From: an uncultured Tateyamaria sp.
GTDB lineage: Bacteria > Pseudomonadota > Alphaproteobacteria > Rhodobacterales > Rhodobacteraceae
DNA: 64,000 nt
Direction: 5' to 3'
Assembly: GCF_947496075.1 (NCBI RefSeq)
Contig: NZ_CANMBJ010000006.1
Span: 543,001 to 607,000, forward strand
Position 1 is the first letter of the stretch; each line of letters begins with the position of its first letter. Positions 8,491-23,498 of the stretch are shown here, piece by piece. A program made the translations under genes and the position numbers. Under the pieces are notes generated by a model. It worked only from the letters and a program-made list of their open reading frames with translations, was not told the origin of the DNA and did no database searches.

Positions 8491-8562
8491 TCTGGTCGTC
8501 CTCCCATTCGTGTTCAAATCCAACATGCTGATTGACCAGTTCATGCCCGCTTTCATATTTGT

Positions 8563-8574
8563 CAAAGCGCTTTG
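8563..8574. promoter_or_regulatory. LacI-family operator (perfect 12-bp palindrome)
   Basis: CAAAGCGCTTTG is a perfect palindrome 73 bases upstream of the aglE start. It has the A-rich/CG-centred form typical of LacI-family operators and is nearly identical to a second copy at 8712-8721 next to the aglR start. Confidence 0.75.
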
Positions 8575-8711
8575 GATGCCGTGAACGTTGCCGAATTTTT
8601 GCGTCCTGTCAAACGCTGAGCTGTCTCCGGTACAAATTAGCCTAACACGTTATGCGAGAGTGATGAGATGTTTTGACGTTAGCGCAACCAGCCGTTAGCG
8701 TCGCTATAACT

Positions 8712-8721
8712 AAAGCGCTTT
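8712..8721. promoter_or_regulatory. Second LacI-family operator copy
   Basis: AAAGCGCTTT lies 15 bases before the regulator's GTG start. It repeats the core of the palindrome at 8563-8574; the two centres are 148 bp apart, so looping or independent control of both divergent transcripts is possible. Confidence 0.7.
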
Positions 8722-8736
8722 GGAACGAATCCGCCT

Positions 8737-9774
8737 GTGAATCTTAAGGAACTGTCATCTTTGTTGGGTCTTAGTCAGACCACGGTCAGCAGGGCCCTGA
8801 ACGGTTATCCCGAGGTGTCCGAGAAAACCCGCGCCCGCGTGGTTCAGGCGGCCGAGGCGCACGCCTACAGCCCCAATACACGGGCCCAGGGCCTCGCCAC
8901 CGGTCATTCCAAGTGCATCGGCCACGTGATTTCGGTGAGTGATTCGGCGGAAATGGTGAACCCGATCTTCGGGGACTTCATGGCCGGGGCGGGCGAGACC
9001 TATTCGGCGCACGGCTATGACATGATGGTCACGCGCGTCGGCGCGCAGGACGAGGCGGACACTTATCGCAGCCTCAAGGCTCGTGGCGCAGTGGATGGCA
9101 TCGTGGTGCACGCCCCGCGCCGCAACGATGCGCGGCTGGCACTGCTCGACAAGATCGGGCTGCCCTACGTCGTCCACGGCCGCTCAACCGGTATCAAGAC
9201 GCCATACTCGTGGCTCGATGTGAACAACACCCGCGCCTTTTCCGAGGCGACGTCCTATCTCGCGGGCCTTGGCCACAGTCGCATCGCTCTGATCAACGGG
9301 CAGGAAACGATGGACTTCGCCATCCGCCGCCGCTCGGGCTACGAATCCTCTCTGCGCTTCGCTGGCCTCTCCATCGACCCCGCATTGATGAGCACGGGCG
9401 AGATGACCGAAGCCTACGGCTATACGCAAGCCAACGCGATGCTTGAGCTCGACCAGCCGCCGACCGCCTTCCTTGCGGCCTCGATCATCTGTGCCGCCGG
9501 CATCCGCCGCGCGCTGGACGAACGCGGCCTGCGGGTGGGGCAGGACGTGTCCATCGCCACTTTCGATGACTGCCTGAGCTATTTTGGCAATGGCGGCGAC
9601 CAGCCCGTATTCACCGCTTGGCAATCCTCCGTGCGGGCGGCTGGAGCGACGCTGGCCCAAATGCTCATTGACCGCATTCGTGCCCCGCACGCCCCGCATA
9701 TCACCAAGCTCTGGGAGGCCGAGTTCGTCTCGGGCGCCTCGACCGGCCCGGCACCGGGCACATCCAAGGACTGA
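8737..9774 (+). CDS. aglR: LacI family transcriptional regulator of alpha-glucoside genes
   Basis: A 345-residue LacI/GalR repressor. The helix-turn-helix is at the very N-terminus (NLKELSSLLGLSQTTVSRAL), with the hinge near residues 45-58 and a periplasmic-binding-protein-like effector domain after it. The start is GTG at 8737; almost no residues precede the HTH, so it cannot be much later. It is divergent from aglE, and two palindromes in the shared region are the likely targets. The beta-glucosidase gene starts 2 bp after its stop, so it is co-transcribed. Confidence 0.9.
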   Translation: MNLKELSSLLGLSQTTVSRALNGYPEVSEKTRARVVQAAEAHAYSPNTRAQGLATGHSKCIGHVISVSDSAEMVNPIFGDFMAGAGETYSAHGYDMMVTRVGAQDEADTYRSLKARGAVDGIVVHAPRRNDARLALLDKIGLPYVVHGRSTGIKTPYSWLDVNNTRAFSEATSYLAGLGHSRIALINGQETMDFAIRRRSGYESSLRFAGLSIDPALMSTGEMTEAYGYTQANAMLELDQPPTAFLAASIICAAGIRRALDERGLRVGQDVSIATFDDCLSYFGNGGDQPVFTAWQSSVRAAGATLAQMLIDRIRAPHAPHITKLWEAEFVSGASTGPAPGTSKD

Positions 9775-9776
9775 TC

Positions 9777-11102
9777 ATGTTCACGCACAAACGTACCGAT
9801 TTCCCCGAGGGCTTCCTCTTCGGGGCTGCAACCTCTGCTTACCAGATCGAAGGGCACGCCTATGGTGGCGCGGGCCGCGCCATGTGGGATGATTTCGCCG
9901 CCACGCCCGGCAATGTTGTCCGGGCCGAAGACGGCGCGCGCGCCTGCGACCATTACCACCGGTACGAAAGCGATTTGGACCTGCTGCGCGACGGTGGCTT
10001 TGACGCCTACCGCTTTTCGACAAGCTGGGCGCGGGTCATGCCGGACGGGCGCAATGTGAACCCCGAAGGGCTCGATTTCTACGACCGGCTTGTCGACGCG
10101 ATGCTGGAACGGAACCTCAAACCCTGCGCCACGCTCTACCATTGGGAACTGCCCTCGGCGCTCGCCGATCTGGGCGGCTGGCGCAACCGCGGCATCGCAG
10201 GCTGGTTCGGCGATTTCACCGAAGCGGTCATGGCCCGCATCGGCGACCGCACTTATTCCGTGGCGACGATCAACGAATTCTGGTGCGTGTCCTTCCTGTC
10301 CCATTTCCTCGGCCACCACGCGCCGGGCCTGCGCGACATCAGGGCGACAGCCCGCGCCATGCACCACGTGCTTTTGGCCCACGGTACATCCATCGAACGG
10401 ATGCGCGGTCTGGGGATCAAAAACCTCGGAGCCGTCTTCAACATGGAATGGGCTACACCCGCCGATGACAGCCTCGAAGCGGCAGAGGCCGCGGCCCTCT
10501 ACGATGATTACTACAACCACTTCTTCGTTTCCGGCGCGTTCAAGGGCACCTATCCCGACCGCTTGACCGCAGCGCTTGGCCCCCATTTTCCTGACGGCTG
10601 GCAAGACGACATGACCACCATCAAGGCCCCGCTGGACTGGGCCGGGATCAACTACTACACGCGGTCGATCCTTGCCCCGAATGATGGTCCTTGGCCGCAT
10701 CATCACAGCGTTGAAGGCCCACTGGAAAAGACGCAAATGGGGTGGGAGGTCTACCCGCAGGGCCTGCATGATTTCCTCGTGCGGACAGCGTCTGAATACA
10801 CCGGCGATCTACCCCTCTTTGTGACCGAAAATGGCATGGCGAATGCCGATGTGATCGTCGACGGGGTGGTGCAGGACGACGCCCGCATCGCCTACTTCCA
10901 AAACCACCTGCAAGCGGTCCGCGACGCCATCGCCAAGGGCGTGCCGGTGCAGGGCTACATGGCGTGGTCGCTCATGGACAATTACGAATGGGCGCTGGGT
11001 TATGAAAAGCGGTTCGGCATGGTCCACGTGGATTTCGACAGCCTCGAACGCACGCCCAAAGCGTCATGGCATGCGTTCAAGGACATGCTGACCGCTAGCT
11101 GA
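9777..11102 (+). CDS. Beta-glucosidase, GH1 family
   Basis: A 441-residue cytoplasmic GH1 enzyme cleaving beta-glucosides. The N-terminal signature FPEGFLFGAATSAYQIEG is intact. The acid/base is Glu167 in TINEF (most relatives have NEP) and the nucleophile is Glu351 in VTENG. C-terminal YEKRFGMVHVDF is typical. It is coupled to aglR, so a beta-glucosidase sits in a regulon otherwise devoted to alpha-glucosides. Its last 8 bases overlap the end of the convergent SDR gene. Confidence 0.93.
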   Translation: MFTHKRTDFPEGFLFGAATSAYQIEGHAYGGAGRAMWDDFAATPGNVVRAEDGARACDHYHRYESDLDLLRDGGFDAYRFSTSWARVMPDGRNVNPEGLDFYDRLVDAMLERNLKPCATLYHWELPSALADLGGWRNRGIAGWFGDFTEAVMARIGDRTYSVATINEFWCVSFLSHFLGHHAPGLRDIRATARAMHHVLLAHGTSIERMRGLGIKNLGAVFNMEWATPADDSLEAAEAAALYDDYYNHFFVSGAFKGTYPDRLTAALGPHFPDGWQDDMTTIKAPLDWAGINYYTRSILAPNDGPWPHHHSVEGPLEKTQMGWEVYPQGLHDFLVRTASEYTGDLPLFVTENGMANADVIVDGVVQDDARIAYFQNHLQAVRDAIAKGVPVQGYMAWSLMDNYEWALGYEKRFGMVHVDFDSLERTPKASWHAFKDMLTAS

Positions 11103-11952
11103 GGAACGTATCCACCACCTGCTGTTGCAGCTTCTTTCCATCGGGGTCGAGGTCGGTTTTCAGTGCACAGAACGCCTCGCCCCATTTTGACGTCCGGGTG
11201 CGGATGGGCGGGGCATCGGATGCCACGCACTCCATGACAACAGCCGCCACTTCATCGGCGGTCTGGTAGATGTCACTGCCCGCCTGCCGGGTCTGCGACC
11301 CGCCCACATATTTCTGCAGAATGGGCAGATATTCATCGTCCAGCATCCCGCCGGTCTCTTCCACCTGCTTCATCACGTTGGCAGCAAACTCCGACGCGAT
11401 CCCGCCCGGCTCAACCACTGTGAAGTTGATCCCGAAATGGGGCGAGATGTAGGACGCCATCGCCTCCATATACCCTTCGACCGCGAACTTGGCGGCGCAG
11501 TAAATCTCGTTGAACGGCTGACCAACCAGCCCACCGACTGAGGATATGGTGATCACATGCCCGGCGCGACGCTCGCGGAAATGGGCGATCACCGCCTTGG
11601 TGCAGCGCACGACACCCATGAAATTGACGTCCATGACCCAGTTGATGTCATCTTCGCTGGCCTGCTCGGTCGACCGCACAAACCCGGCGCCCGCATTGTT
11701 GATCAGCACATCAACATGCCCTTGCGCACCCAGCACGTCCTCAACGCAGGCAGCGATCGACGCGCTGTCCTGCACGTCCAACTGCGCGACATTCAGGGTG
11801 ACACCTGCCGCCTCGGCCGCCTCATCCAGCGCGGTCCGCTTGTCCAGATTGCGCATGGTGGCATAGACCGTGTGGCCCGCCTGCGCGGCCTGCACGGCCA
11901 GGGAAATGCCCAGACCCGAGGAGCATCCGGTGATGAGAATGACTTTGGACAT
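11095..11952 (-). CDS. Short-chain dehydrogenase/reductase
   Basis: A 285-residue classical SDR. The nucleotide motif is TGCSSGLG at the N-terminus, followed by NNAGAG. The catalytic Ser is in ISSVGG and Tyr-Lys in YCAAK. It probably uses NADP(H) or NAD(H) on a small alcohol or ketone; the substrate is not readable. It lies 87 bp downstream of the Gfo/Idh/MocA gene on the same strand and may belong to the same operon, in which case it could act on a sugar or the sugar's aglycone. Its 3' end overlaps the beta-glucosidase by 8 bp. Confidence 0.85.
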   Translation of the reverse strand: MSKVILITGCSSGLGISLAVQAAQAGHTVYATMRNLDKRTALDEAAEAAGVTLNVAQLDVQDSASIAACVEDVLGAQGHVDVLINNAGAGFVRSTEQASEDDINWVMDVNFMGVVRCTKAVIAHFRERRAGHVITISSVGGLVGQPFNEIYCAAKFAVEGYMEAMASYISPHFGINFTVVEPGGIASEFAANVMKQVEETGGMLDDEYLPILQKYVGGSQTRQAGSDIYQTADEVAAVVMECVASDAPPIRTRTSKWGEAFCALKTDLDPDGKKLQQQVVDTFLS

Positions 11953-12039: not shown

Positions 12040-13140
12040 CTACATCCACTGACGCGGATCAACCGCTTGCCCGGTGCGCGCGCTTTCCTGGGCTGCGATC
12101 CCCATCGCCACGGCGGCCCAGCCGTCGCGCAGCGTGACCTCTGGCGCACCCTGACCACGCACCAGCGCGGCAAAGCGTTGATGTTGATAAAAGGTCGATC
12201 CGTTGTGATCGCCCGCCTCCAACAGTGTTGGATCGACGGGAATGTCATGGGTCACAGGCCCTTGCGGTTGGCGCGGTGATGTCACCAGCTTGGCAATCGG
12301 GGCAGGGCCCAGATGCGCGGGCCAGAACCGGCCCGGTCCGGGCACAAACGCCTCGATTTTACCGATCGGCCCAACGGCAGACAGCTCTTCCTGATAGGCG
12401 GACCCTTCGGCGAACATGCACAATTCCAGCATCGCGCGGGTGCCATTGTCGAATTCGACCAGCGCATAGCCGCTGTCGACGATGTCTGGCACCTCGCCGC
12501 CATAATCCTCGTCCAGATGATTTACGGCTTGGCTGGCCGAGGCCATGACACGCACCGGCTCCGCGCCCATCGCCAGACGCATCAGGTCAAAGAAATGGCA
12601 GCATTTTTCGACAAAAGTTCCACCCGTGTAGCGGTTGAAGCGGTTCCAGTCGCCGACCTTTTCCAGAAACGGAAAGCGGTGTTCGCGCACCGACAACTGC
12701 CTGATGCCCCCGGTCGCCTCCGCAGCCTTTTCAAGAAACTGCGCGATGACGGGCATATAGCGGTACTCCATCGCCACCCAGATCGGCGCAGGGTAGCTGT
12801 CGCGGAACGCGGCCAGCTTTGCGGCATCGGCGGGGTCCGTGAACAAGGGCTTTTCGACCAGCAGGGGCAGGGGGCGCGTGGCCGCGATCTCTTCCATCTG
12901 TGCCACGTGGCAGAAGTTCGGGCTGACGATCAGCAGGCAATCCAAGTCTTCAACGGCCAGCAACTCCTGAACAGAACCCACCACCTGTGCCTCGGGCACG
13001 ATGGCTGACGCCTGTGCAGCCATGCCCGCATCCGGTTCATAGAACGCGGCGACACTTGCCTCGGGCAACAGCGCAATATTGCGCATGTGTTCCTGCCCCA
13101 TCATCCCGCATCCGATAATGCCATAGCGTACCTGGTCCAA
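12040..13140 (-). CDS. Gfo/Idh/MocA family protein; candidate NAD-dependent sulfoquinovosidase (GH188-like)
   Basis: A 366-residue protein with an N-terminal Rossmann fold (YGIIGCGMMG) and the EKP motif (Glu96-Lys97-Pro98). A C-terminal Gfo/Idh/MocA domain carries GGTFVEKCCHFFDLMR (Glu178, Lys179, His182, Asp185). The start is probably TTG at 13140, with AAGGA 7 bases upstream; GTG at 13155 is an alternative that overlaps the gntR stop. Most relatives are sugar dehydrogenases. A subgroup reported in Roseobacter sulfoquinovose clusters acts as NAD-dependent glycosidase through transient C3 oxidation. The divergent monooxygenase, aldo/keto reductase and flavin reductase genes make that role plausible here. 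The assignment is contextual, not proven. Confidence 0.7.
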   Translation of the reverse strand: MDQVRYGIIGCGMMGQEHMRNIALLPEASVAAFYEPDAGMAAQASAIVPEAQVVGSVQELLAVEDLDCLLIVSPNFCHVAQMEEIAATRPLPLLVEKPLFTDPADAAKLAAFRDSYPAPIWVAMEYRYMPVIAQFLEKAAEATGGIRQLSVREHRFPFLEKVGDWNRFNRYTGGTFVEKCCHFFDLMRLAMGAEPVRVMASASQAVNHLDEDYGGEVPDIVDSGYALVEFDNGTRAMLELCMFAEGSAYQEELSAVGPIGKIEAFVPGPGRFWPAHLGPAPIAKLVTSPRQPQGPVTHDIPVDPTLLEAGDHNGSTFYQHQRFAALVRGQGAPEVTLRDGWAAVAMGIAAQESARTGQAVDPRQWM

Positions 13141-13151
13141 CCTGCGTTCCT

Positions 13152-13862
13152 TCACTTCATGCGTTGCACATAAACGGCCCGCGCGGGGTCGTACCATGTG
13201 CGGGAAAATTCAATGGGTGCCGCTGCGTCTGCCCAGCTCAGGCGCTCGACATACCCGACCGTGTCGCCGGGACGCGGGCCATAGGCATCGGGCGCCCAGT
13301 CCGGCACCGCGCCCAGCGACACCCGGTCCTCGGCCCGCTGGATCCACAGACCCAGCTCTTTGCGGTACGTGGCATAAAGGGATTCGGACATCGTGGCTTC
13401 CGACACGATTCCCGCATCCGCATCCAGCCAAATCTCTTCGACAGCGATGATTGTGTCATTCAGGGACCGCAGCCGCCGGATGCGCGTGCCCCGGACTGCA
13501 CTTCCGAAATCTGGCAGGTCAGCGGGCTTGCCCATCAGATCAACAGACAGAACCTGCGCCCGCGGCAGCCCACCACCTTCAAGCAGTTCCAGCCGGAACA
13601 TGGCATAGACGGTGCCCGTGTCGCCCCCCGCCCGGATATAGTTGCCGGAGCCTTGAACGCTCTGCACCAACCCCTTTTCGCCCATGTCCCGCAGGGCTTT
13701 GCGCAACGTGCCGACGCTCACGCCCAGCTCGGCGGCCATGTCGCGTTCGGGCGGCAAACGCTCGCCATCGATCAAGCGGCCAGAAATGATATCCCGGGTC
13801 AGAAGCTCGGCGATCTGCACGTAGATGGGCAGCGACTGAGGGGATTGTTTTTGCGTGGTCAC
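13152..13862 (-). CDS. GntR family transcriptional regulator (HutC/UTRA type)
   Basis: A 236-residue regulator. The winged helix lies at residues 15-75 (ELLTRDIISGRLIDGERLPP and MAAELGVSVGTLRKALRDM), and a UTRA ligand-binding domain follows. The start is GTG at 13862; the preceding ribosome-binding site is weak. It is divergent from the monooxygenase operon and upstream of the Gfo/Idh/MocA gene. It therefore probably controls both arms of the cluster in response to the sugar sulfonate or a breakdown product. Confidence 0.85.
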   Translation of the reverse strand: MTTQKQSPQSLPIYVQIAELLTRDIISGRLIDGERLPPERDMAAELGVSVGTLRKALRDMGEKGLVQSVQGSGNYIRAGGDTGTVYAMFRLELLEGGGLPRAQVLSVDLMGKPADLPDFGSAVRGTRIRRLRSLNDTIIAVEEIWLDADAGIVSEATMSESLYATYRKELGLWIQRAEDRVSLGAVPDWAPDAYGPRPGDTVGYVERLSWADAAAPIEFSRTWYDPARAVYVQRMK

Positions 13863-13899
13863 GTGAGGTTACAGGCTGGAGTGCATAAAATTGATACAC

Positions 13900-13917
13900 C
13901 ATTGATCTACATCAATG
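13900..13917. promoter_or_regulatory. Palindrome in gntR-monooxygenase divergent region (FNR-like box or GntR operator)
   Basis: CATTGAT-CTAC-ATCAATG is a perfect 7-bp inverted repeat with a 4-base spacer. Its core TTGAT-N4-ATCAA matches the FNR/FnrL consensus. A further half-site, ATTGAT, lies 10 bases upstream at 13890-13895. The palindrome lies 38 bases before the divergent gntR start and 46 bases before the monooxygenase start, so it could equally be the GntR operator. Confidence 0.6.
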
Positions 13918-13962
13918 ACAGTGTTACGCAAGTGCCAAGTTGAAGCCATTGAAAGACCGTAG

Positions 13963-15117
13963 ATGACGATCGTCCCCATCACATCCCCAGACCTTGATGC
14001 GGCCGAAGTGTCGTGGTTCTCGGCTCTTTGCTCGGACGACTATCAGTTTCTTGGCGTGCCTGACGGCAATTTGCGGTCCAGCTGGGCGCACTGTTCCGAC
14101 ATCGTGAAAGAGGCCGAGGCGCAAGGTTTCCGCAACATCCTCTGCCCCTCCTCCTACCAGGTGGGGCAGGACACGCTGTCCTTCGTTGCCGGCTGCGCGC
14201 CCATCACATCCAAGATCAACCTGCTTGCCGCCGTCCGCTGCGGCGAGGTGCAGCCGATCATGCTGGCCCGCACCATCGCCACACTTGACCACATGCTTGA
14301 AGGGCGGCTGACTGTGAACATCATTTCGTCCGATTTTCCGGGCGAAAAGGCCGATAGCGAATACCGCTACCAACGCTCGCGCGAGGTGGTCGAAATCCTG
14401 AAACAGGCGTGGACGCGGGACGAAATCACGTACAAGGGCGAGGTGTACAACTTCGAAGGTCTCACCACAGACCCCGTGCGCCCCTACCAGACAGGCGGTC
14501 CGCTGCTCTATTTCGGGGGCTATTCCCCATCAGCACTCGACCTGTGCGGCCAGCATTGTGATGTCTACCTGATGTGGCCCGAGCCAAAGGAAAACCTCGC
14601 GCAGCGCATGCGCGACGTGAACGCCGTGGCCGAGAAATACAACCGTACGCTCGACTACGGCCTGCGGGTGCACATGATCGTGCGGGACACGGAAGCCGAG
14701 GCGCGCGAATACGCAGACTACATCGTGTCAAAACTTGATGACGAATACGGCCAGCTGATCCGTGACCGGGCTTTGGACAGCACGTCGCTTGGCGTGGCGC
14801 ATCAGGCCAAGGCGCGCGAACTGGCGGACAAGTTCGGCTATGTCGAACCCAACCTCTGGACCGGTGTTGGCCGGGCGCGTTCGGGCTGTGGCGCGGCGCT
14901 TGTCGGCTCGACCGATCAGGTGATGTCGAAAATCGAAGAATATCAAAAGATGGGCATCCGCGCCTTCATCTTCTCGGGCTACCCGCACCTGGACGAAGCA
15001 AAGCATTTTGGCGCGCTTGTCATGCCGCACTTGAAAACCTGCTCATTGCCCCATGCTTATGGCCGGGTGCCATCGACCGCCCCCGCAACACCCCTTGCCG
15101 CAGGAGAGCGCCGCTAA
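13963..15117 (+). CDS. smoC: FMNH2-dependent sulfonate monooxygenase, LLM family (SmoC/SsuD-like)
   Basis: A 384-residue luciferase-like monooxygenase. By eye it follows SsuD closely through the C-terminal half: LRVHMIVRDTEAEA, LDDE, PNLWTGVGRARSGCGAALVG and FIFSGYPHLDEA. SsuD-type enzymes use reduced FMN and O2 to cleave a C-S bond, releasing sulfite and an aldehyde. Here the gene overlaps an aldo/keto reductase by one base and a flavin reductase comes next, the set known as SmoC-SmoB-SmoA for sulfoquinovose. No ABC sulfonate genes are nearby. Substrate assignment rests on this context; other alkanesulfonates are possible. Confidence 0.75.
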   Translation: MTIVPITSPDLDAAEVSWFSALCSDDYQFLGVPDGNLRSSWAHCSDIVKEAEAQGFRNILCPSSYQVGQDTLSFVAGCAPITSKINLLAAVRCGEVQPIMLARTIATLDHMLEGRLTVNIISSDFPGEKADSEYRYQRSREVVEILKQAWTRDEITYKGEVYNFEGLTTDPVRPYQTGGPLLYFGGYSPSALDLCGQHCDVYLMWPEPKENLAQRMRDVNAVAEKYNRTLDYGLRVHMIVRDTEAEAREYADYIVSKLDDEYGQLIRDRALDSTSLGVAHQAKARELADKFGYVEPNLWTGVGRARSGCGAALVGSTDQVMSKIEEYQKMGIRAFIFSGYPHLDEAKHFGALVMPHLKTCSLPHAYGRVPSTAPATPLAAGERR

Positions 15118-16007
15118 TGGACCGCGTCCAACTATCCGATACCCTGAATTTCTCGCGCATCGTCTATGGCATGTGGCGCTTGGCTGACGACAGCGACACG
15201 TCGGTGGGCCACGTCCAGGCCAAGATCCACGCCTGCCTTGACCAGGGGATCACCACCTTTGACCAGGCCGACATCTACGGTGGCTACGTGGCCGAGGCTG
15301 TGCTGGGCGAGGCGCTCAAGGCCGATACCGGCCTGCGGTCCAAGATGGAGATCGTGACCAAATGCGATATCGTCGCGCCCGTGGGCCGCTATGCTGACGC
15401 GCCGGTCAAATACTACGACACCAGCCGCGCCCACATCATGCAAAGCATCGAAAACTCGCTGCGGGACATGAACGTCGATCACATCGACCTGTTGCTGATC
15501 CACCGCCCTGACCCGTTCATGGATCACCATGAAACAGGTGCCGCGCTGGACGAAGCGGTCGCGAGCGGCAAGGTCGGCGCCGTAGGCGTGTCCAACTTCC
15601 GCCCCTGGGACTGGAAGCTGCTGCAATCGGGTATGAAATCGCAACTGGTCACCAACCAGATCGAAATTTCCCTCAGTGAAATCAACCCGTTCACCAACGG
15701 GGACCTGTCGTTCCACCAGCGGCACGGCCAGCCTGTGATGGCGTGGTCACCACTTGGTGGCGGCGGCCTGATGACGGGCAATGACAAACTGCACGCTGTC
15801 ATGGATGAGATTGCTGGCGCACAAGGCGTAGATCGCGCTGCCGTCGCGACCGCGTTTTTGCTGGCACACCCCGCAAACATCATTCCGGTGATGGGTACGA
15901 ATAATATCGACCGGATCAGCAAGATCGGCAATGCTGCACAGGTGTCACTGGACCGGCCCACATGGTTCCGCTTGTATGAAGCGGCCCTGGGACATGAGGT
16001 GGCTTGA
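15117..16007 (+). CDS. smoB: Aldo/keto reductase (SmoB-like, 6-oxo-glucose reductase candidate)
   Basis: A 296-residue AKR of the YdhF-like group. The catalytic tetrad is visible: Asp49 and Tyr54 (FDQADIYG), Lys82 (TKCD) and His129 (LLIHRPDP). The ATG overlaps the stop of the monooxygenase gene (TAATG). In the sulfo-SMO pathway the monooxygenase product is 6-oxo-glucose and an AKR reduces it to glucose with NADPH. That fits this gene's place between monooxygenase and flavin reductase. Without that context it would only be a general AKR. Confidence 0.72.
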   Translation: MDRVQLSDTLNFSRIVYGMWRLADDSDTSVGHVQAKIHACLDQGITTFDQADIYGGYVAEAVLGEALKADTGLRSKMEIVTKCDIVAPVGRYADAPVKYYDTSRAHIMQSIENSLRDMNVDHIDLLLIHRPDPFMDHHETGAALDEAVASGKVGAVGVSNFRPWDWKLLQSGMKSQLVTNQIEISLSEINPFTNGDLSFHQRHGQPVMAWSPLGGGGLMTGNDKLHAVMDEIAGAQGVDRAAVATAFLLAHPANIIPVMGTNNIDRISKIGNAAQVSLDRPTWFRLYEAALGHEVA

Positions 16008-16519
16008 TGACAATGCAAAGCCCGGACCAATCGACAGTGTTTTCCCCCGATGCCAATTCCAGCCGCCAGCTCCGCGACGCCTTCGGCAAGTTCGCCACTG
16101 GCGTAACCCTGATCACAGCGCCCAGCGTCGACGGCCCCATCGCCATCGTGGCCAACAGCTTTTCGTCCGTCTCTCTGGATCCGGCGCTTGTCTTATGGTC
16201 CGTGGACCGCGATGCCCGCCGCTTCCGCTATTTCGAAGCGGCCGACCACTACGCAATCCACGTTCTGGCCGCAGAACAGCACGAAATCTGCAAACGTGCA
16301 GCGCGCGATGGGCACATGCTGAACGACCATACGCATCACTTCAACGCCGATGGTGTTCCTTTGATTGATCATTGCCTTGCGCGGTTCGAATGTCGCAGGG
16401 TGGCAGCACATGACGCAGGCGACCACGTGATTATCGTGGGCCAGGTCCAGCGCACCGAGATGCGCGACGGACAGCCGCTCACATTCTTCGGGGGCAACTT
16501 CGGCTCCGTCACGTCCTGA
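16007..16519 (+). CDS. smoA: NAD(P)H:flavin reductase (SmoA-like)
   Basis: A 170-residue flavin reductase domain protein (FMN-binding split barrel): AFGKFATGVTLITA, VANSFSSVSLDPALVLWSV and FFGGNFG are visible. It would supply FMNH2 to the monooxygenase two genes upstream. The ATG at 16007 overlaps the AKR stop by one base (TGATG); an in-frame TTG at 16004 is less likely. It is the third gene of the coupled operon. Confidence 0.8.
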   Translation: MTMQSPDQSTVFSPDANSSRQLRDAFGKFATGVTLITAPSVDGPIAIVANSFSSVSLDPALVLWSVDRDARRFRYFEAADHYAIHVLAAEQHEICKRAARDGHMLNDHTHHFNADGVPLIDHCLARFECRRVAAHDAGDHVIIVGQVQRTEMRDGQPLTFFGGNFGSVTS

Positions 16520-16607
16520 CGTGAAAAACGACCCGCCCGCGGGGTGAAAGCGGAAAATGGGCCACGGTGGATTAACCGCCGGGCGACCGACAAAGGGAGG
16601 GCCCTTC

Positions 16608-17192
16608 ATGGGTCTATTACTGACGGTGCTCGCGCCGATCAGCTGGTTGAATGGCCTGCTGCTCAAGATCGGGCGAGCCATAGGCATCGTGGCCATTGCG
16701 GCCATGGTGATTGCGATCCTGATTCAGGTCGTGGCCCGCTATCTCTTCAACAATGCATTGCCCTGGCCGGACGAGGCGGCACGCTTCTGCATGCTCTGGA
16801 TGACCGGCCTGATGGCACCCACGGCCTTCCGGCGCGGGGGCTTCGTGGCGCTCGACATGATCTCGGGCGTGTTGCCACGACCCGTCGCAGCACTCCTTGG
16901 TCTGGTCCTGCTCCTGATCTCCATCGCGATCCTGCTGGTCGCCTTGCCCATCGGCTATTCCGAGGTGACAGGCTTTGGCGGCAAGTTTGCCACCGCATCG
17001 CTCTACCTGCCCACATTCGATGGCTGGTTCCGCGTTCCACGCAGCTGGATGATGCTGTCTTTGCTCATCGGTGTGGTTCTTCTGCTCATGGTCAATGTCG
17101 AATTGATCCTGCGCAAACTGGTCGAGTTGATGGGCGGCGGCGATCAATTGCCCGATCTCGATCTGGGCGACATGGCTGCGGGGAGCGAATGA
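16608..17192 (+). CDS. dctQ: TRAP transporter small permease (DctQ)
   Basis: A 194-residue protein with four predicted membrane helices and the DctQ pattern RYLFNNALPWPDEAARFCMLW, in which an E-x-A-R block marks the family. I chose the ATG at 16608 because AAGGGAGG lies at 16593-16600; an upstream in-frame ATG lacks a site. It forms the membrane unit with the large permease starting two bases after its stop. It follows the monooxygenase operon by about 90 bp on the same strand, so its cargo is probably the pathway substrate, an organic acid or sulfonate. Confidence 0.9.
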   Translation: MGLLLTVLAPISWLNGLLLKIGRAIGIVAIAAMVIAILIQVVARYLFNNALPWPDEAARFCMLWMTGLMAPTAFRRGGFVALDMISGVLPRPVAALLGLVLLLISIAILLVALPIGYSEVTGFGGKFATASLYLPTFDGWFRVPRSWMMLSLLIGVVLLLMVNVELILRKLVELMGGGDQLPDLDLGDMAAGSE

Positions 17193-17193
17193 T

Positions 17194-18666
17194 ATGCTGA
17201 TCTGGTTCCTTCCGCTTTTCCTGCTGTTCCTGATGATCGGCCTGCCGGTCTTCTTCGGCCTGCTCGCCGCCCCTGGCATCCTGCTGTACCTCAACGGGCA
17301 AGAGCGTGACATCACGCTGCTCTACCGGAACGTCTACAACGGCATGGACAGCTTCCCGCTCATGGCAATCCCGTTCTTCATGCTGGCGGGCGAGTTGATG
17401 AACAAGGGTGGGATCACCATCCGCCTTGTCCAGTTTTCCCAAGCGCTCATGGGCCACCTGCGCGGTGGCCTCGCGCAAGTGAACGTGCTGTCGTCCATCC
17501 TCTTCGCGGGCCTCTCCGGCTCTGCCGTGGCCGACACCTCGGCGCTTGGTTCCATGCTGGTGCCAGCGATGGAGAAAGAGGGTTATACCCGCCGCTACGC
17601 TGCAGCGATCACCGCCGCCTCATCCGTCATCGGCCCGATCATCCCGCCCTCGGGCATCATGATCATCTACGCCTATGTTATGGGCGAAAGCGTTGCGGCC
17701 CTGTTCCTCGCGGGCATCGTGCCGGGTATCCTCGTGGGTGTCGGCCTCATGGTGATGATCCGCCTCACCGCTGACCGCTACGACCTGCCCGCGGCGCACA
17801 AAGTCAAATTCGACGGCGTTGCGCTCAGCCCCATGGAACGTTGGGTGTCCTGGGCGCTGGTGCGTCTGAACATCGGCCTGCTGCTCTGGGCCTTCCTGCC
17901 CTTGGGCGAGACATCCCCGCTGATCCTCTGGGGCACCTTCGCAGGCGCGGTCGTCGTGGCCCACGCGCTGATGCTTGCGCTCCGTACCCAGGTCAGCAGC
18001 GAATTCCGCACCATCTGCAAACGCGCGATCGTGCCCTTGCAAACGCCGGTCCTAATCCTCGGCGGAATCCTCGGCGGCGTCTTCACCCCGACCGAGGCGG
18101 CAGCGGTCGCCGTGGCCTACGCCGTCTTCGTCGCCTTCTTTGTCCTGCGCACCATGCGCCTGTCGGATCTGCCCGACATCCTCAGCCGCGCGGGGCTGAC
18201 CAGCGCCGTGGTCTTGTTGCTGGTGGGGGCAGCACTTGCGTTCAAAACGGTGGTCTCGCTCAGCTACGCGCCCCAGATCCTCGCGGATTTCATTCTGACG
18301 CTGTCGGAAAACCCTCTGGTCCTGCTTTTCCTGATCAACCTGCTGTTGTTCATCGTCGGCATGTTCCTTGATGCAGGGCCCGCGATCATCATCCTTGGGC
18401 CCATCCTCGGCCCCATCTTCGTCGATCTCGGCGTCGACCCGATCCACTTTGCCATCATCATGTCGGTGAACCTGACGGTGGGGCTGGCAACGCCACCCAT
18501 GGGGCTGGTGCTTTTCGTTGCGGCGGCGGTCAGTCGGGAAAAGGTGGAAACCATCGCCAAGGCGATCCTGCCCTTCCTCGCCATCGAGATCGCAGTGATC
18601 TTCCTGATCACCTACGTGCCCGCAATATCCATGACCATTCCCCGCCTGACGGGGTTTGCAAACTAA
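17194..18666 (+). CDS. dctM: TRAP transporter large permease (DctM)
   Basis: A 490-residue, strongly hydrophobic protein with about 12-13 membrane segments. Conserved DctM features are visible: SGSAVADTSALGSMLVPAM, IGPIIPPSGIMIIYAYV and PTEAAAVAVAYA. It carries out sodium-driven uptake of the ligand delivered by the DctP protein encoded downstream. It is longer than many DctMs (about 425) because of a polar insert near residues 185-250. Gene order Q-M-P and the short gaps show one operon. Confidence 0.92.
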   Translation: MLIWFLPLFLLFLMIGLPVFFGLLAAPGILLYLNGQERDITLLYRNVYNGMDSFPLMAIPFFMLAGELMNKGGITIRLVQFSQALMGHLRGGLAQVNVLSSILFAGLSGSAVADTSALGSMLVPAMEKEGYTRRYAAAITAASSVIGPIIPPSGIMIIYAYVMGESVAALFLAGIVPGILVGVGLMVMIRLTADRYDLPAAHKVKFDGVALSPMERWVSWALVRLNIGLLLWAFLPLGETSPLILWGTFAGAVVVAHALMLALRTQVSSEFRTICKRAIVPLQTPVLILGGILGGVFTPTEAAAVAVAYAVFVAFFVLRTMRLSDLPDILSRAGLTSAVVLLLVGAALAFKTVVSLSYAPQILADFILTLSENPLVLLFLINLLLFIVGMFLDAGPAIIILGPILGPIFVDLGVDPIHFAIIMSVNLTVGLATPPMGLVLFVAAAVSREKVETIAKAILPFLAIEIAVIFLITYVPAISMTIPRLTGFAN

Positions 18667-18695
18667 TCCAGAGCTTAACGGGAGGACCTAACATA

Positions 18696-19754
18696 ATGCT
18701 CAAAACGACCCTCAAAACCCTCACAGCCGCCGCGCTTGTCGCAGGCTCGGCCATGATGGCGACAGCGCAGGATTACACGATCCGCGCCACCGCCAACTCG
18801 AATACCAATGACGAAGATTATGACGGCCTCGTCGTCTTCAAGAACTATGTCGAGGCAGCTTCAAACGGCGCCATCGCCGTGGAACTCTTCATCGGCACGC
18901 AACTCTGCTCGAACGGTGCGGAATGCCTGCAAGGCGTGGCCGACGGCTCGATCGATGTCTACATCTCCACCTCCGGCGGTGCCTCGGGCATCTTTCCTTA
19001 CGTGCAGGTGCTCGACCTGCCATACCTGATGGCCGACGACCGCATCGCGGAACACGTGCTGTCGGGTGACTTCACCCGCACCATGCGTGACATGGCGCTT
19101 GAGGATTCCGGTGGCGCGATCCGCCTGATGACCATCGGGAACACCGGCGGCTGGCGCAACTTTGCCAACACGCAACGCCGTGTGGCCGAGCCGGGCGATA
19201 TGGAAGGTCTGAAAATCCGTACCGTGGTCGCCGACCTGCCGCAAGAACTGGTCAAAGCCCTTGGCGCGTCCCCAACCCCGATCCCGTGGCCCGAGCTTTT
19301 CACCTCGTTCCAGACCGGCGTTGTCGAAGGATCCAAGAACGGCATCACCGACATCATGGGTATGAAGTTCCCCGATGCGGGCCTGCAATACGTCACCCTC
19401 GACGGCCACGCCTACATGGGTGCGCTGTGGTGGATGTCGAACGAAAACTTCCTCGCAATGCCCGAAGACATGCGCCGCGTCGTGGTTGATGGCTTCTACG
19501 CCCTGCAACAGGCGACATTCGCCTCGCCCAAGCGCAAGTCGATCCAGGCTTACGAAGAGTTTGTCGCCGGTGGCGGTGATCTCTACGTGCCAACACCTGC
19601 GCAAAAGGCTGCGTTTGCCGAAGCGTCCACACCGGTCTACGACTGGTTCAAGGACAACGTGGCCCGTGGCCCTGAAATCTTTGACGCTCTGACAGCTGCC
19701 GTTGCAGCCGCCGAAGAAGACGTGAACGCGTCGCGCGCCGCCGACCTGAACTAA
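18696..19754 (+). CDS. dctP: TRAP transporter substrate-binding protein (DctP family)
   Basis: A 352-residue periplasmic protein with a signal peptide ending near MMATAQD. The core DctP stretch MEGLKIRTV includes the arginine that normally binds a ligand carboxylate. PIPWPELFTSFQTGVVEGSK and LYVPTPAQKAAFAEAS are also typical. GGGAGGA precedes the ATG. It lies downstream of a probable sulfoquinovose desulfonation operon, so a sulfonated sugar or its glyceride is a candidate ligand. TRAP proteins normally prefer carboxylates, so this is inference. Confidence 0.9.
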   Translation: MLKTTLKTLTAAALVAGSAMMATAQDYTIRATANSNTNDEDYDGLVVFKNYVEAASNGAIAVELFIGTQLCSNGAECLQGVADGSIDVYISTSGGASGIFPYVQVLDLPYLMADDRIAEHVLSGDFTRTMRDMALEDSGGAIRLMTIGNTGGWRNFANTQRRVAEPGDMEGLKIRTVVADLPQELVKALGASPTPIPWPELFTSFQTGVVEGSKNGITDIMGMKFPDAGLQYVTLDGHAYMGALWWMSNENFLAMPEDMRRVVVDGFYALQQATFASPKRKSIQAYEEFVAGGGDLYVPTPAQKAAFAEASTPVYDWFKDNVARGPEIFDALTAAVAAAEEDVNASRAADLN

Positions 19755-19845: not shown

Positions 19846-20490
19846 CTAAGGGCGCGGTTGCGGCAAGTGATCGACATAGCCAGCCGCCACAAGTGCGTCG
19901 AAGGCCTGTAGAACAGGCTCAGGAACATCCACGTGCCGTTGAAAACCCAACGTGGTGTAGGTACGCATCCGGTCCAGATCTCCAACCATTTCGCAAATCA
20001 ATGCGCGTTGATCGTGATGGGGAAGGGGTTGATCCTCAAATGCGGTGTCGGGCGCTGTGACCAAGGATTTCACCCCCGGCCACTGGTGTTCAGCCGTCGC
20101 CAGACACCGCAATTGCGTCTGCGGTTTGGTCACAAAGATCACCTGCTTTGCATCAGGGACAAGATCCGCGCAGAAACGCACATTCTCACCGATATTCGTG
20201 GCGCGGGGTTCCAGTGTGATCGCCTCTGTCGGCACGCCCAACTGATGCGCGTGATCACAGAATGCCTCTGCCTCGCTTGCCGGGAAAAGGTCGCTTGTCC
20301 AATTCCCTGATGCGCCGGTGAATATGATCCGGGGCGCAAAACCGTCCTTGAACAGTTCCGCGCAACGCGCGGCCACCCGGATGTCATAGGATCCCAATCC
20401 AATAATGACGTCCGCCGCGCTTGGTGTGCTGTTGACATGATGAAAGTGCCAGAGTGTGCGGGCGGCCTCTGGAACGTCATTTGCGGTCAT
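19846..20490 (-). CDS. YdcF family protein (DUF218)
   Basis: A 214-residue DUF218 protein: ADVIIGLGSYD, IIFTGASGNW, SEAEAF and LEPRATNIGENVRF are the family blocks. Family members are thought to bind nucleotides (S-adenosylmethionine reported for E. coli YdcF), but the reaction is unknown. There is no signal peptide, so it is probably cytoplasmic. The ATG at 20490 has AGAGGGCC upstream and was preferred to a longer frame. It is convergent with dctP and divergent from the PEP mutase family gene. Confidence 0.82.
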   Translation of the reverse strand: MTANDVPEAARTLWHFHHVNSTPSAADVIIGLGSYDIRVAARCAELFKDGFAPRIIFTGASGNWTSDLFPASEAEAFCDHAHQLGVPTEAITLEPRATNIGENVRFCADLVPDAKQVIFVTKPQTQLRCLATAEHQWPGVKSLVTAPDTAFEDQPLPHHDQRALICEMVGDLDRMRTYTTLGFQRHVDVPEPVLQAFDALVAAGYVDHLPQPRP

Positions 20491-20654: not shown

Positions 20655-21419
20655 ATGTCCCAAATCGACAAAGCCAACGCCTTCGCCGCCTTGCACATCC
20701 CCGGCACACCCGTCGTTATCTACAACATCTGGGACGCGGGCACGGCCAAGGCCGTGACCAAGGCGGGCGCCAAGGCCCTTGCCACCGGCAGCTGGTCCGT
20801 GGCCGAGGCGCAGGGTTACCCTGACGGCGAAAACATCCCGCTCGACGATCTGCTCGCCATCGCCACCCGCATTGTGAACAGCACGGACCTGCCGGTCAGC
20901 ATCGATTTCGAAGGAGGCTATACCGCCGACCCCGAACCGCTGGCCGCCAACATCACGGCCCTGATCGGCACGGGCGCCATCGGGCTCAACTTCGAGGATC
21001 AAGTGGTCGGCAGCTCAGACCTCTATCCCATCGACACACAAGCTGCCCGGGTCAAGGCGATCCGCGCTACGGCTGACGCAGCGGGCGTGCCGCTCTTCAT
21101 CAACGCGCGCACCGATCTGTTCTTGAAAGCCAAGCCCGACACCCACGCGACCCATCTGGTCGAGGCAAAAGAACGTGGCGCAGCCTATGCCGAGGCCGGG
21201 GCCAGCGGCTTCTTCATCCCCGGCTTGACGGACCACGGCATGATCCGTGGCATCTGCGATGCGTCATCCTTGCCAATCAACGTGATGATGCGCGGTGCCC
21301 TGAGTTCGATTGCCGAAGTCGCCGCCCTCGGCGTTGCGCGGGCCAGCTATGGCCCGGGTCCTTTCGCCCAATCCATGACGCAGGTGGCCGAAGGTTACAG
21401 CGCAGCCGCCGCCAGCTAA
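20655..21419 (+). CDS. Isocitrate lyase/PEP mutase family protein
   Basis: A 254-residue TIM-barrel enzyme of the PEP mutase/isocitrate lyase superfamily. Visible: PVVIYNIWDAGTAKAV, SIDFEGGYTADP (metal-binding acids), GLNFEDQV and INARTDLF. Members cleave or form C-C or C-P bonds next to a carboxylate (2-methylisocitrate lyase, oxaloacetate hydrolase, phosphonopyruvate hydrolase). The K-K-C-G-H loop of true isocitrate lyases is not evident, so the exact reaction is open. The start at 20655 gives normal family length; the upstream open frame is not convincing. It appears monocistronic and ends at a GTAG-footed hairpin. Confidence 0.8.
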   Translation: MSQIDKANAFAALHIPGTPVVIYNIWDAGTAKAVTKAGAKALATGSWSVAEAQGYPDGENIPLDDLLAIATRIVNSTDLPVSIDFEGGYTADPEPLAANITALIGTGAIGLNFEDQVVGSSDLYPIDTQAARVKAIRATADAAGVPLFINARTDLFLKAKPDTHATHLVEAKERGAAYAEAGASGFFIPGLTDHGMIRGICDASSLPINVMMRGALSSIAEVAALGVARASYGPGPFAQSMTQVAEGYSAAAAS

Positions 21420-21716: not shown

Positions 21717-22187
21717 TCACCGGAACGGATACATCCACACCTTGTAGTCAGCGACCAGAATATGCGCCCGATCAATCTGATCCTTGGTCATTTTCTTGAC
21801 CACCTCTTCCAGCGAAATCGCCGCGTCGGGATCGCCGCCAATCGCGGACAGGGTGTACCACATATACGCGCGCACAAGGTCCGGTGCGGGCATCCCGCGC
21901 CCAACCTCGTAGTACCATCCGACACCGGATTGCGCGCCCGGATGCCCCTTCATCGACGACCGCAAATACCACTCGAACGCCCGTTCATCATCGCGCTCGA
22001 CGCCAAGGCCCAAGGCGTACATGACACCGATCAGTTCCTCGGCATCCGCATTGCCCGACCGGGCCGCGGGCCACAGCGCATCATAGGCTGCCTTGTAGTC
22101 TCCGGCCTCCATCAGATCGCGCGCTTCCTCAATCTCGGCCAGTGCCGGGAAGGCCATAAAAACAAGGGCTATCGCAAGTTTGCGCAT
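21717..22187 (-). CDS. Sel1-repeat (TPR-like) periplasmic protein
   Basis: A 156-residue protein with a signal peptide (MRKLAIALVFMAFPALAE) and two or three Sel1-like helical repeats. ADAEELIGVMYALGLGVERD and GAQSGVGWYYEVGRGM are the recognisable pieces. Such proteins usually mediate protein-protein contacts; the partner is unknown. The ATG at 22187 has AAAGGAG upstream. Its 5' end lies directly opposite the signal-peptide region of the divergent di-heme peroxidase. Confidence 0.8.
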   Translation of the reverse strand: MRKLAIALVFMAFPALAEIEEARDLMEAGDYKAAYDALWPAARSGNADAEELIGVMYALGLGVERDDERAFEWYLRSSMKGHPGAQSGVGWYYEVGRGMPAPDLVRAYMWYTLSAIGGDPDAAISLEEVVKKMTKDQIDRAHILVADYKVWMYPFR

Positions 22188-22238
22188 GTACTTCTCCTTT
22201 GCGGCGCACCCGCCTTTGCCGACGGTGTACCACGTGCT

Positions 22239-23498
22239 TTGACCGCGGATGATTTCATCGCTGTGGACCCGGCGCAAGCCAAACTCGGCCAGCTTCTGTT
22301 CTATGATCGCATCCTGTCCGGCAACCGCAATATCGCCTGTTCCACCTGTCACCATCCCGACCTTGGCACCGGTGACGGTCTGAGCCTCGGCATCGGCGAA
22401 GGGGGCGAAGGTTTGGGCCCGCAGCGGACTGCCGGCGTGGGCGATGACCGCATCCGCAAACGCATCCCCCGCAACGCGCCCGGCCTCTGGAACCTCGGGG
22501 CCAAGGACCTGCACACCATCTTCCACGACGGACGCCTCAGCGTCGCCGACACCTATGAGAACGGATTTAACTCCCCGGCCGAGGAATGGCTGCCCGAGGG
22601 ATTGAATAACCTATTGGCAGCACAGGCAATTTTCCCGCTGGTCGCCCAGTTTGAAATGGCTGGAAACCCCAAGGAAAACGAGGTTGCTGGGGCCATCCAC
22701 CAGCGTATGGATTACGCGTGGCCCATCCTTGCAGACCGTGTGCGCCACATCCCTCCATATGCCGAAGGGTTCGCGGGGGCGTATGACCATATCAAAACGG
22801 CCAAGGACATCACCATTGCCGATATCGCGAATGCGCTCAGTGCCTTCATGACCTGGGAATGGACCAGCACGGACAGCCCCTTCGACGCCTATCTGTCGGG
22901 CGATGAAAAAGCCCTGAATACTCAACAAAAGCAGGGGCTTGAACTGTTCTATGGCAAGGCGAATTGCAGCAGTTGCCACAGTGGCCCACTGATGACTGAT
23001 CAGGCATTCCACGCCCTCGGCCTGCCGCCCTTTGGCCCTGGTCGAACCCGCCGCTTTGATCCCATGGTGCGGGATGTCGGACGCATGGGGGAAAGCGACG
23101 CGCTCGAAGATGCCTATGCCTTCAAAACACCGATGCTCCGAAACGTGGCCCTGACCGCCCCCTATGGGCACAACGGTGCATATCCGACCCTCGAAGGGAT
23201 CGTGCGGCATCATATGAACCCCTTGCAATCATTGGATAATTGGACGCCAGAGATAGCAGCTCTGCCGTCCGTTCCGTGGCTTGAGGCGATCGATTTCATG
23301 GTTTGGCAAGACAGCCGCGAAATGGCGCGTCAACGCGCGGCGGTGCAGATTGAAAATAACCTTCTTACGGACAGCGAAGTCGATCAGATCGTGGCGTTCC
23401 TACATGCCCTGACAGGTGAAACCGCAAATGACGGCAAACTGGGCGTGGCAAAGGCAGTGCCAAGCGGCCTGCCGGTTGATCCGAGAATAACGCCCTAG
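22239..23498 (+). CDS. Di-heme cytochrome c peroxidase (MauG/CcpA family), start uncertain
   Basis: A periplasmic di-heme enzyme that reduces H2O2 or oxidises protein sites. Two CXXCH heme sites are present: CSTCHHPD near the N-terminus and CSSCHSGP in the C-terminal half. LGQLLFYDRILSGNRNIAC, FHDGRL, TPMLRNVALTAPYGHNG and a distal-half methionine are typical. The position given is the first in-frame TTG (22239), but that would remove the signal peptide. The open frame continues upstream and encodes a good signal-like stretch (KFAHVLLLCGAPAFADG) with no ATG, GTG or TTG just before it. Either an unusual start is used or the 5' end is damaged. It overlaps the next, convergent gene by 4 bp. Confidence 0.8.
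   Translation: MTADDFIAVDPAQAKLGQLLFYDRILSGNRNIACSTCHHPDLGTGDGLSLGIGEGGEGLGPQRTAGVGDDRIRKRIPRNAPGLWNLGAKDLHTIFHDGRLSVADTYENGFNSPAEEWLPEGLNNLLAAQAIFPLVAQFEMAGNPKENEVAGAIHQRMDYAWPILADRVRHIPPYAEGFAGAYDHIKTAKDITIADIANALSAFMTWEWTSTDSPFDAYLSGDEKALNTQQKQGLELFYGKANCSSCHSGPLMTDQAFHALGLPPFGPGRTRRFDPMVRDVGRMGESDALEDAYAFKTPMLRNVALTAPYGHNGAYPTLEGIVRHHMNPLQSLDNWTPEIAALPSVPWLEAIDFMVWQDSREMARQRAAVQIENNLLTDSEVDQIVAFLHALTGETANDGKLGVAKAVPSGLPVDPRITP

Follow-up and report, generated by a model that had tools for sequence, protein, structure and literature searches.

A predicted sulfoquinovose sulfo-SMO cluster of GH188 type in an uncultured Tateyamaria and its association with a TRAP transporter and a Sel1/di-heme peroxidase gene pair

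Introduction

Does a locus in which a flavin-dependent monooxygenase, an aldo/keto reductase and a flavin reductase lie beside a Gfo/Idh/MocA-fold protein and a transporter serve the use of the sulfosugar sulfoquinovose (SQ), and which of its neighbours take part in that use? This question is raised by a stretch of the genome of an uncultured Tateyamaria sp. (RefSeq assembly GCF_947496075.1; 4.94 Mb, completeness score 100%), namely positions 543,001 to 607,000 of contig NZ_CANMBJ010000006.1, which were analysed as a whole and are referred to here as the window (64,000 nucleotides). About 10 billion tonnes of SQ are produced each year (PMC10755693), and bacteria of the Roseobacter clade are among its marine consumers (PMC13372026). 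As judged from sequence comparison, the locus is very probably an SQ monooxygenase (sulfo-SMO) cluster of the Roseobacter type for SQ glycosides, as the initial annotation had proposed, SmoC and SmoB being the best matches of its two central enzymes by wide margins. The genes named in that annotation were all found as open frames at the places and in the families given, between 12040 and 19754. This span, however, ends early, since a pair of genes standing head to head at 21717-23498, 2 kb further on, shows the same association. The features of the system are as follows.

12040-13140, minus strand: SqgA (P0002), a predicted GH188 NAD+-dependent sulfoquinovosidase of Gfo/Idh/MocA fold (structure matches, contact residues)
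13152-13862, minus strand: GntR/UTRA-family regulator, divergent from smoC (PF00392 and PF07702)
13890-13915, plus strand: operator-like site ATTGATACACCATTGATCTACATCAA, putative GntR target (top-scoring position of every locus compared, at most 180 bp ahead of smoC)
13963-15117, plus strand: SmoC (SquD), predicted FMNH2-dependent SQ monooxygenase of the Bac_luciferase family (bit scores, tree)
15117-16007, plus strand: SmoB (SquF), predicted aldo/keto reductase for 6-dehydroglucose (matches to 7bby and 7bbz)
16004-16519, plus strand: flavin reductase (Flavin_Reduct, PF01613), probably in the SmoA role
16557-17192, plus strand: DctQ, small permease of a tripartite ATP-independent periplasmic (TRAP) transporter (PF04290)
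17194-18666, plus strand: DctM, TRAP large permease (PF06808)
18696-19754, plus strand: DctP, TRAP solute receptor, putative binder of SQ or SQ-glycerol (PF03480; neighbour of GH188 in two kinds of cluster)
21717-22187, minus strand: small Sel1-repeat protein (P0012) of 156 residues with a signal-peptide-like start (PF08238)
22150-23498, plus strand: di-heme cytochrome c peroxidase/MauG-family protein (PF03150; CSTCH and CSSCH motifs; P0011 covers 22191-23495)

Predicted sulfoquinovose enzymes

The monooxygenase aligned over its entire length with the structures 7olf and 7oh2, which bear generic names in the match table and which we take to be SmoC, at 713 and 704 bits (79.1 and 77.8% identity), versus 201 bits for the next alkanesulfonate monooxygenase and 186 bits for SsuD (33.5% identity). 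Tree placement, which had been suggested as a check, put the protein with SmoC and not with SsuD, and this placement together with the low SsuD identity refuted an SsuD or MsuD identity. One row of this tree (own_LLM_L004), cut from the C-terminal 500 residues of an open frame 1280 residues long and standing on a branch of length 10, fell inside SmoC as an artefact and was set aside in reading the tree, which still contains it. The aldo/keto reductase reached 402 bits with 7bby and 401 with 7bbz, both presumably SmoB, and 202 with the next different protein. The three enzyme genes, for monooxygenase, aldo/keto reductase and flavin reductase, overlap one another by 1 and 4 bp, and the flavin reductase, whose nearest NCBIfam model is FerA (NF052639; 187 bits versus a cut-off of 260), would take the role of SmoA. 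On these comparisons, the assignment of the enzymes by orthology can be considered nearly certain.

The Gfo/Idh/MocA-fold product of 12040-13140, for which GH188 membership had been suggested, scored 545 bits against 8zn9 (67.8% identity) and 343 bits against 8qc2 and 8qc3 (46.5% identity), versus at most 46 bits for inositol dehydrogenases. The IolG model reached 92 bits against a cut-off of 355, and the four other Gfo/Idh/MocA proteins of the same genome, two of them part frames, were 18-28% identical to SqgA. An inositol or glucose-fructose oxidoreductase identity was ruled out by the GH188 matches and the weak IolG score. The structures 8qc2 and 8qc3 are those of FlSqgA and ArSqgA, and the main text describing them gives Lys107, Tyr136, Glu189, His193 and His321 as contacts of ArSqgA, and Arg166, Leu170 (through its backbone) and Lys172 as its sulfonate site (Kaur et al. 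2023, PMC10755693). Mapped onto P0002 by shifting the chain numbering by 13, these are kept as K97, Y126, E178, H182 and H312, and as R155, L159 and K161, so that the active-site comparison proposed in the initial annotation found all eight placed contacts conserved. Across 78 of 78 aligned loci the eight are invariant, save one Leu-to-Met change at the sulfonate-site Leu; the published Glu163 maps one residue off in P0002 numbering, and the neighbouring Glu (E153) is invariant. The window SqgA carries the common Leu rather than the Tyr of the Backlund and Higgins variants, and an evident signal peptide was not found in it. The protein is thus assigned by its sequence to GH188 and is predicted to be an NAD+-dependent sulfoquinovosidase. 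In the GH188 tree, eight grouped rows from the second cluster type described below hold together (support 98); two part frames on branches of length 10, own_GIM_L089 (39% of columns), which lands inside the rows of sulfo-SMO type, and L090, were set aside in reading the tree, which still contains them. A classical GH31 sulfoquinovosidase had been presumed to be lacking, and a genome-wide search with PF01055 (E <= 0.001) gave no match in this genome of completeness 100, the same search giving matches in 6 of 14 control genomes.

Conservation of the cluster

The closest named relatives of the window's SmoC belong to Tateyamaria, with a top identity of 98%. The arrangement was compared across 80 named loci, the best 80 of 292 SmoC relatives, which constitute a close set because all have at least 83% identity at SmoC. 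Relatives of the GntR regulator (in one case a fragment, cut off where the contig stops) and of SmoB were found at all 80, of SqgA at 78, of the flavin reductase at 74, of DctQ at 65, and of DctM and DctP at 63 each. Such recurrence indicates that the arrangement is not due to chance. SqgA is missing from L054, where the contig breaks off, and from L059, which is not truncated in this way.

Two neighbouring genes tried as parts of the system were dropped because their relatives (E <= 1e-30) recur in few loci, namely the GH1 beta-glucosidase at 9777-11102 (14 of 80) and the short-chain dehydrogenase/reductase at 11095-11952 (3 of 80). The former lies in a separate sugar cluster at 7132-11102, which also encodes a binding protein of ATP-binding cassette (ABC) type and a LacI regulator.

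TRAP transporter in two cluster types

The co-occurrence survey covered 150 genomes from this family, with a single genome for each genus and all at least 90% complete, and the numbers of genomes bearing SmoC (63), GH188 (76) and a DctP orthologue (56) depend on the cuts used. Of the 63 SmoC genomes, 62 also have GH188, at a distance of 12 kb or less in 59; of the 56 receptor genomes, 53 have GH188, at most 12 kb away in 48. SmoC and DctP share 40 genomes and lie within 12 kb of each other in 38. Among the 150 genomes, there was none with GH188 that lacked both SmoC and DctP.

Sixteen DctP genomes lack SmoC; GH188 is present in 14 of them and adjoins DctP in 12. Two of these 12 (G035 and G129) keep the SMO-type GH188 and the GntR regulator, and the other ten (loci L091-L100) hold another kind of cluster. 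Nineteen further stretches were taken, and family libraries were run on the TRAP/GH188 surroundings of one, L099, the rest of L091-L100 being assigned by homology to its genes. L099 encodes GH188, a DeoC/LacD-type aldolase, a PfkB kinase, an aldose epimerase, a 2-hydroxyacid dehydrogenase, a DeoR regulator, a protein like sulfoquinovose isomerase (254 bits, under the 700-bit cut-off), an enzyme like succinate-semialdehyde dehydrogenase, and a sulfopyruvate decarboxylase alpha subunit that exceeds its cut-off. From these families, the L099 cluster is read as a sulfo-Embden-Meyerhof-Parnas (sulfo-EMP) pathway feeding sulfolactate breakdown. The aldolase family was found in seven of the ten loci, and the isomerase-like and kinase families in six each; the remaining gaps may be real differences or losses from simple gene calling, which was poor on L094.

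In a tree of 37 receptors, rows of the SMO and EMP types were intermixed, and the EMP-type receptor L092 was nested in the Tateyamaria group with support 99/95. The tree, whose bootstrap has not yet settled, needs 8 changes for the SMO type versus 12.2 in shuffles, which implies that some clustering of receptor types remains, and the type formed one group in 0% of 200 bootstrap trees. For a transporter swapped between two pathways that have GH188 and the starting sugar in common, SQ or an SQ glycoside is the simplest cargo. It is therefore likely, from this distribution, that the TRAP transporter is the importer, with SQ or SQ-glycerol as its cargo. The window's genome has eight other DctP matches, all on different contigs.

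Several loci deviate from the common pattern. Without a SmoC match, L101 keeps GH188, GntR, SmoB, flavin reductase and TRAP, L102 keeps GH188, GntR, TRAP and the Sel1/peroxidase pair, and L104 keeps SmoB, flavin reductase and TRAP. L109 comes from G087, which is alone among the 63 SmoC genomes in giving no GH188 match at the chosen cut; it keeps SmoC, GntR and TRAP, and within the 19 kb examined nothing scored over 60 bits against the SmoB or flavin reductase of the window.

Sel1-repeat and di-heme peroxidase pair

Both genes of the pair occur in 55 of the 80 loci, always with DctP, that is, in 55 of 63 TRAP-bearing versus 0 of 17 TRAP-less loci. Eight DctP loci lack the pair, and in four of them the sequence stops no more than 1.1 kb from DctP; two of the 17 TRAP-less loci (L072 and L078) are short contigs. 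Among the 62 loci with at least 9 kb downstream, 43 have both TRAP and the pair, 4 only TRAP, none only the pair and 15 neither (Fisher 4e-11, a value that overstates independence because the loci are related). The gap from DctP to the Sel1 gene has a median of 59 bp and a maximum of 4.2 kb. In 8 of the EMP-type loci L091-L100, the pair adjoins DctP or lies within about 3 kb of it. The 5' ends of the two genes abut or overlap, with 4 bp between the reference codons in the window and 4-91 in 12 loci; the start codon of the peroxidase could not be fixed. Between DctP and the pair, the window has a DUF218 gene (19846-20490) and a gene of the phosphoenolpyruvate-mutase family (20655-21419), whose relatives occupy this position in one locus and in four loci of the 80, respectively, all Tateyamaria.

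In the survey, a Sel1 orthologue was found in 41 of the 150 genera, and all 41 have DctP (Fisher 1e-24, uncorrected for kinship). It lies within 10 kb of a peroxidase gene in 41 of 41 genomes and within 10 kb of DctP in 33 of 41. The distance to DctP on one contig is 634 kb in G052, 442 kb in G127, 23 kb in G019 and 14 kb in G053, and in four genomes the two genes are on different contigs, which a contig break may explain. Fifteen DctP genomes have no Sel1 orthologue. A close peroxidase (about 51% identity or more) was present in 46 genomes, two of them counted by short pieces, and five of the 46 lack DctP: in the TRAP-less G022 and G138 the peroxidase alone (53-54% identity) adjoins SmoC, in G141 SmoC is on another contig, and G089 and G136 (51 and 58%) have neither SmoC nor DctP nor GH188 at the cuts used. 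The absence of SmoC and GH188 from the last two speaks against a strict dedication of the peroxidase to SQ. Any peroxidase match (E <= 1e-40) was seen in 94 genomes, 48 of which have more distant homologues only, indicating that the family is broader than SQ; the window's own genome has two other matches, on different contigs.

Residues Q145, P149 and E155 and both CxxCH motifs of the peroxidase are invariant in 19 alignment rows, which makes a working peroxidase likely. The spacing of these Q-P-E residues is that of the peroxidatic site. In MauG, a Tyr is the distal ligand of the second heme; at this position, read by eye from the alignment, 18 of the 19 rows have His and one has Met. The matches of the protein in the Protein Data Bank did not exceed 112 bits, and its AlphaFold model (mean predicted local distance difference test score, pLDDT, 67) is too weak for heme ligands. 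From these counts, the association of the pair with SQ clusters appears real, and one may guess that the peroxidase removes peroxide in the periplasm or oxidises a partner, for instance the Sel1 protein or DctP.

Regulator and operator-like site

In 80 of 80 loci, a 26-bp element with the consensus ATTGATACACCATTGATCTACATCAA was the highest-scoring match anywhere in the locus and stood at most 180 bp ahead of smoC; it scored 17-26 of 26, versus 15 or 16 in five shuffled sequences. A 22-bp form occurs once in the window and in none of 100 shuffles. This conserved site between the GntR and SmoC genes is likely an operator, and the site ATTGATAcAc(T/C)ATTGATcTACAtcAA would be the probable target of the divergent GntR regulator. 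Apart from the CATTGAT/ATCAATG arms at 13900-13917, the search for inverted repeats in the gaps gave nothing usable. Within the window, no copy of the operator pattern turned up near the Sel1/peroxidase pair, and scores in the EMP-type loci L091-L100 were at chance level (14-17 of 26).

Proposed pathway and alternative explanations

In the proposed pathway, the TRAP transporter would import SQ and/or SQ-glycerol, and SqgA would open the glycoside through a transient oxidation of C3 by NAD+, a mechanism published for relatives whose residues are kept here. With FMNH2 presumably supplied by the flavin reductase, SmoC would cleave the C-S bond to give sulfite and 6-dehydroglucose, which SmoB would reduce to glucose, both reactions being published for relatives and extended here by orthology. 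The glucose would enter metabolism through the glucokinase of the genome, of which there is one, about 26 kb before the window. Sulfite may be oxidised by sulfite-oxidase-fold proteins, of which the genome carries three (one barely over the cut-off) along with one DmsC-like protein. The Sel1/peroxidase pair, as a guess, might handle peroxide in the periplasm during growth on breakdown products of algal sulfolipid.

Several observations weigh against this scheme. The flavin reductase falls under every NCBIfam cut-off listed and is absent from 6 of the 80 loci. The TRAP receptor is missing from 23 of the 63 SmoC genomes and is therefore not obligatory, and 3 of the 56 receptor genomes (G043, G133 and G087) lack GH188. 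ABC-type binding proteins, whose cargo need not be SQ, are encoded close to SmoC in L024 and L060 at least. The DctP ligand is not readable from sequence, nor is the pocket from its weak AlphaFold model (mean pLDDT 71). Both L024 and L060 are TRAP-less SMO clusters; L060 also has a nearby permease, and L024 a glucokinase gene.

That the locus instead scavenges sulfur as an ordinary SsuD/MsuD-type alkanesulfonate operon, its aldo/keto reductase being unrelated and a sugar dehydrogenase standing beside it, is scarcely conceivable: the top NCBIfam model of the monooxygenase is indeed FMNH2-dependent alkanesulfonate monooxygenase, but it gave 249 of the 518 bits required, the protein is 33% identical to SsuD versus 78-79% to SmoC, and the same operon holds relatives of SmoB and GH188. 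It is very unlikely that another six-carbon sulfosugar or sulfonate is the main substrate and SQ a side substrate. A sulfofucose pathway reported in a Paracoccus indicates that relatives use other sulfosugars (PMC12421959); against this stand the high-identity relatives of SmoC, SmoB and SqgA and the kept SQ-binding contacts of the latter.

A reading in which common descent alone keeps the TRAP transporter and the Sel1/peroxidase pair next to the cluster, and they import or act on something else, we regard as unlikely. It draws on the 23 SmoC genomes that manage without TRAP, on the close peroxidases of G089 and G136, and on the mostly side-by-side position of the genes, which makes joint inheritance possible, all compared genomes being of one family and the counts uncorrected for the tree. 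However, the receptor tree mixes the cluster types, down to the EMP-type L092 within Tateyamaria, a receptor accompanies all 41 Sel1 genomes even where the genes are 634 and 442 kb apart, and the peroxidase alone adjoins SmoC in two TRAP-less genomes. The fuller proposal, that the Sel1 protein and the peroxidase are a dedicated periplasmic companion of SQ uptake common to sulfo-SMO and sulfo-EMP, two downstream pathways unrelated to each other, and form, with a TRAP importer of SQ or SQ-glycerol and GH188, a swappable front end, is given an even chance.

Relation to known systems and significance

Sulfo-SMO with GH188 has already been published for Roseobacter: GH188 is near-universal in Roseobacter sulfo-SMO clusters according to the main text of Kaur et al. 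2023 (PMC10755693), with which the window shares the combination of SqgA and sulfo-SMO enzymes, and a 2026 review citing Ma et al. 2025 describes the GH188 enzyme as widespread in marine Roseobacteraceae. The core of the cluster is thus known, and the window is a further member. Compared with the sulfo-SMO (sulfo-ASMO; SmoA, SmoB, SmoC; SquD, SquF) systems of Agrobacterium tumefaciens and Novosphingobium, the window is alike in monooxygenase, aldo/keto reductase and flavin reductase, whereas it has GH188 instead of a GH31 sulfoquinovosidase and adds the GntR/UTRA regulator and the Sel1/di-heme pair. It also has a TRAP transporter where Agrobacterium has an SQ-glycerol ABC importer (PMC9594981). 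The peroxidase shares two CxxCH motifs and an invariant Q-P-E with the di-heme cytochrome c peroxidase/MauG superfamily (PF03150), while representing a distinct subfamily head to head with a Sel1 gene.

The association of the TRAP transporter and the Sel1/peroxidase pair with SQ clusters is apparently unreported. Titles and abstract openings of the papers listed gave no link of SQ with TRAP, DctP, Sel1, MauG or cytochrome c peroxidase, the parts of PMC10755693 consulted make no mention of TRAP, an operator or the pair, and no importer was named for GH188-type clusters of the Roseobacter clade in the literature examined. Since one TRAP receptor lineage adjoins GH188 in two cluster types, the predicted importer is directly testable, and the operator motif and the two marker genes are usable for annotating marine genomes. 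If it is true that SQ use needs the Sel1/peroxidase pair, this would imply a periplasmic step in SQ use that is apparently unexplored.

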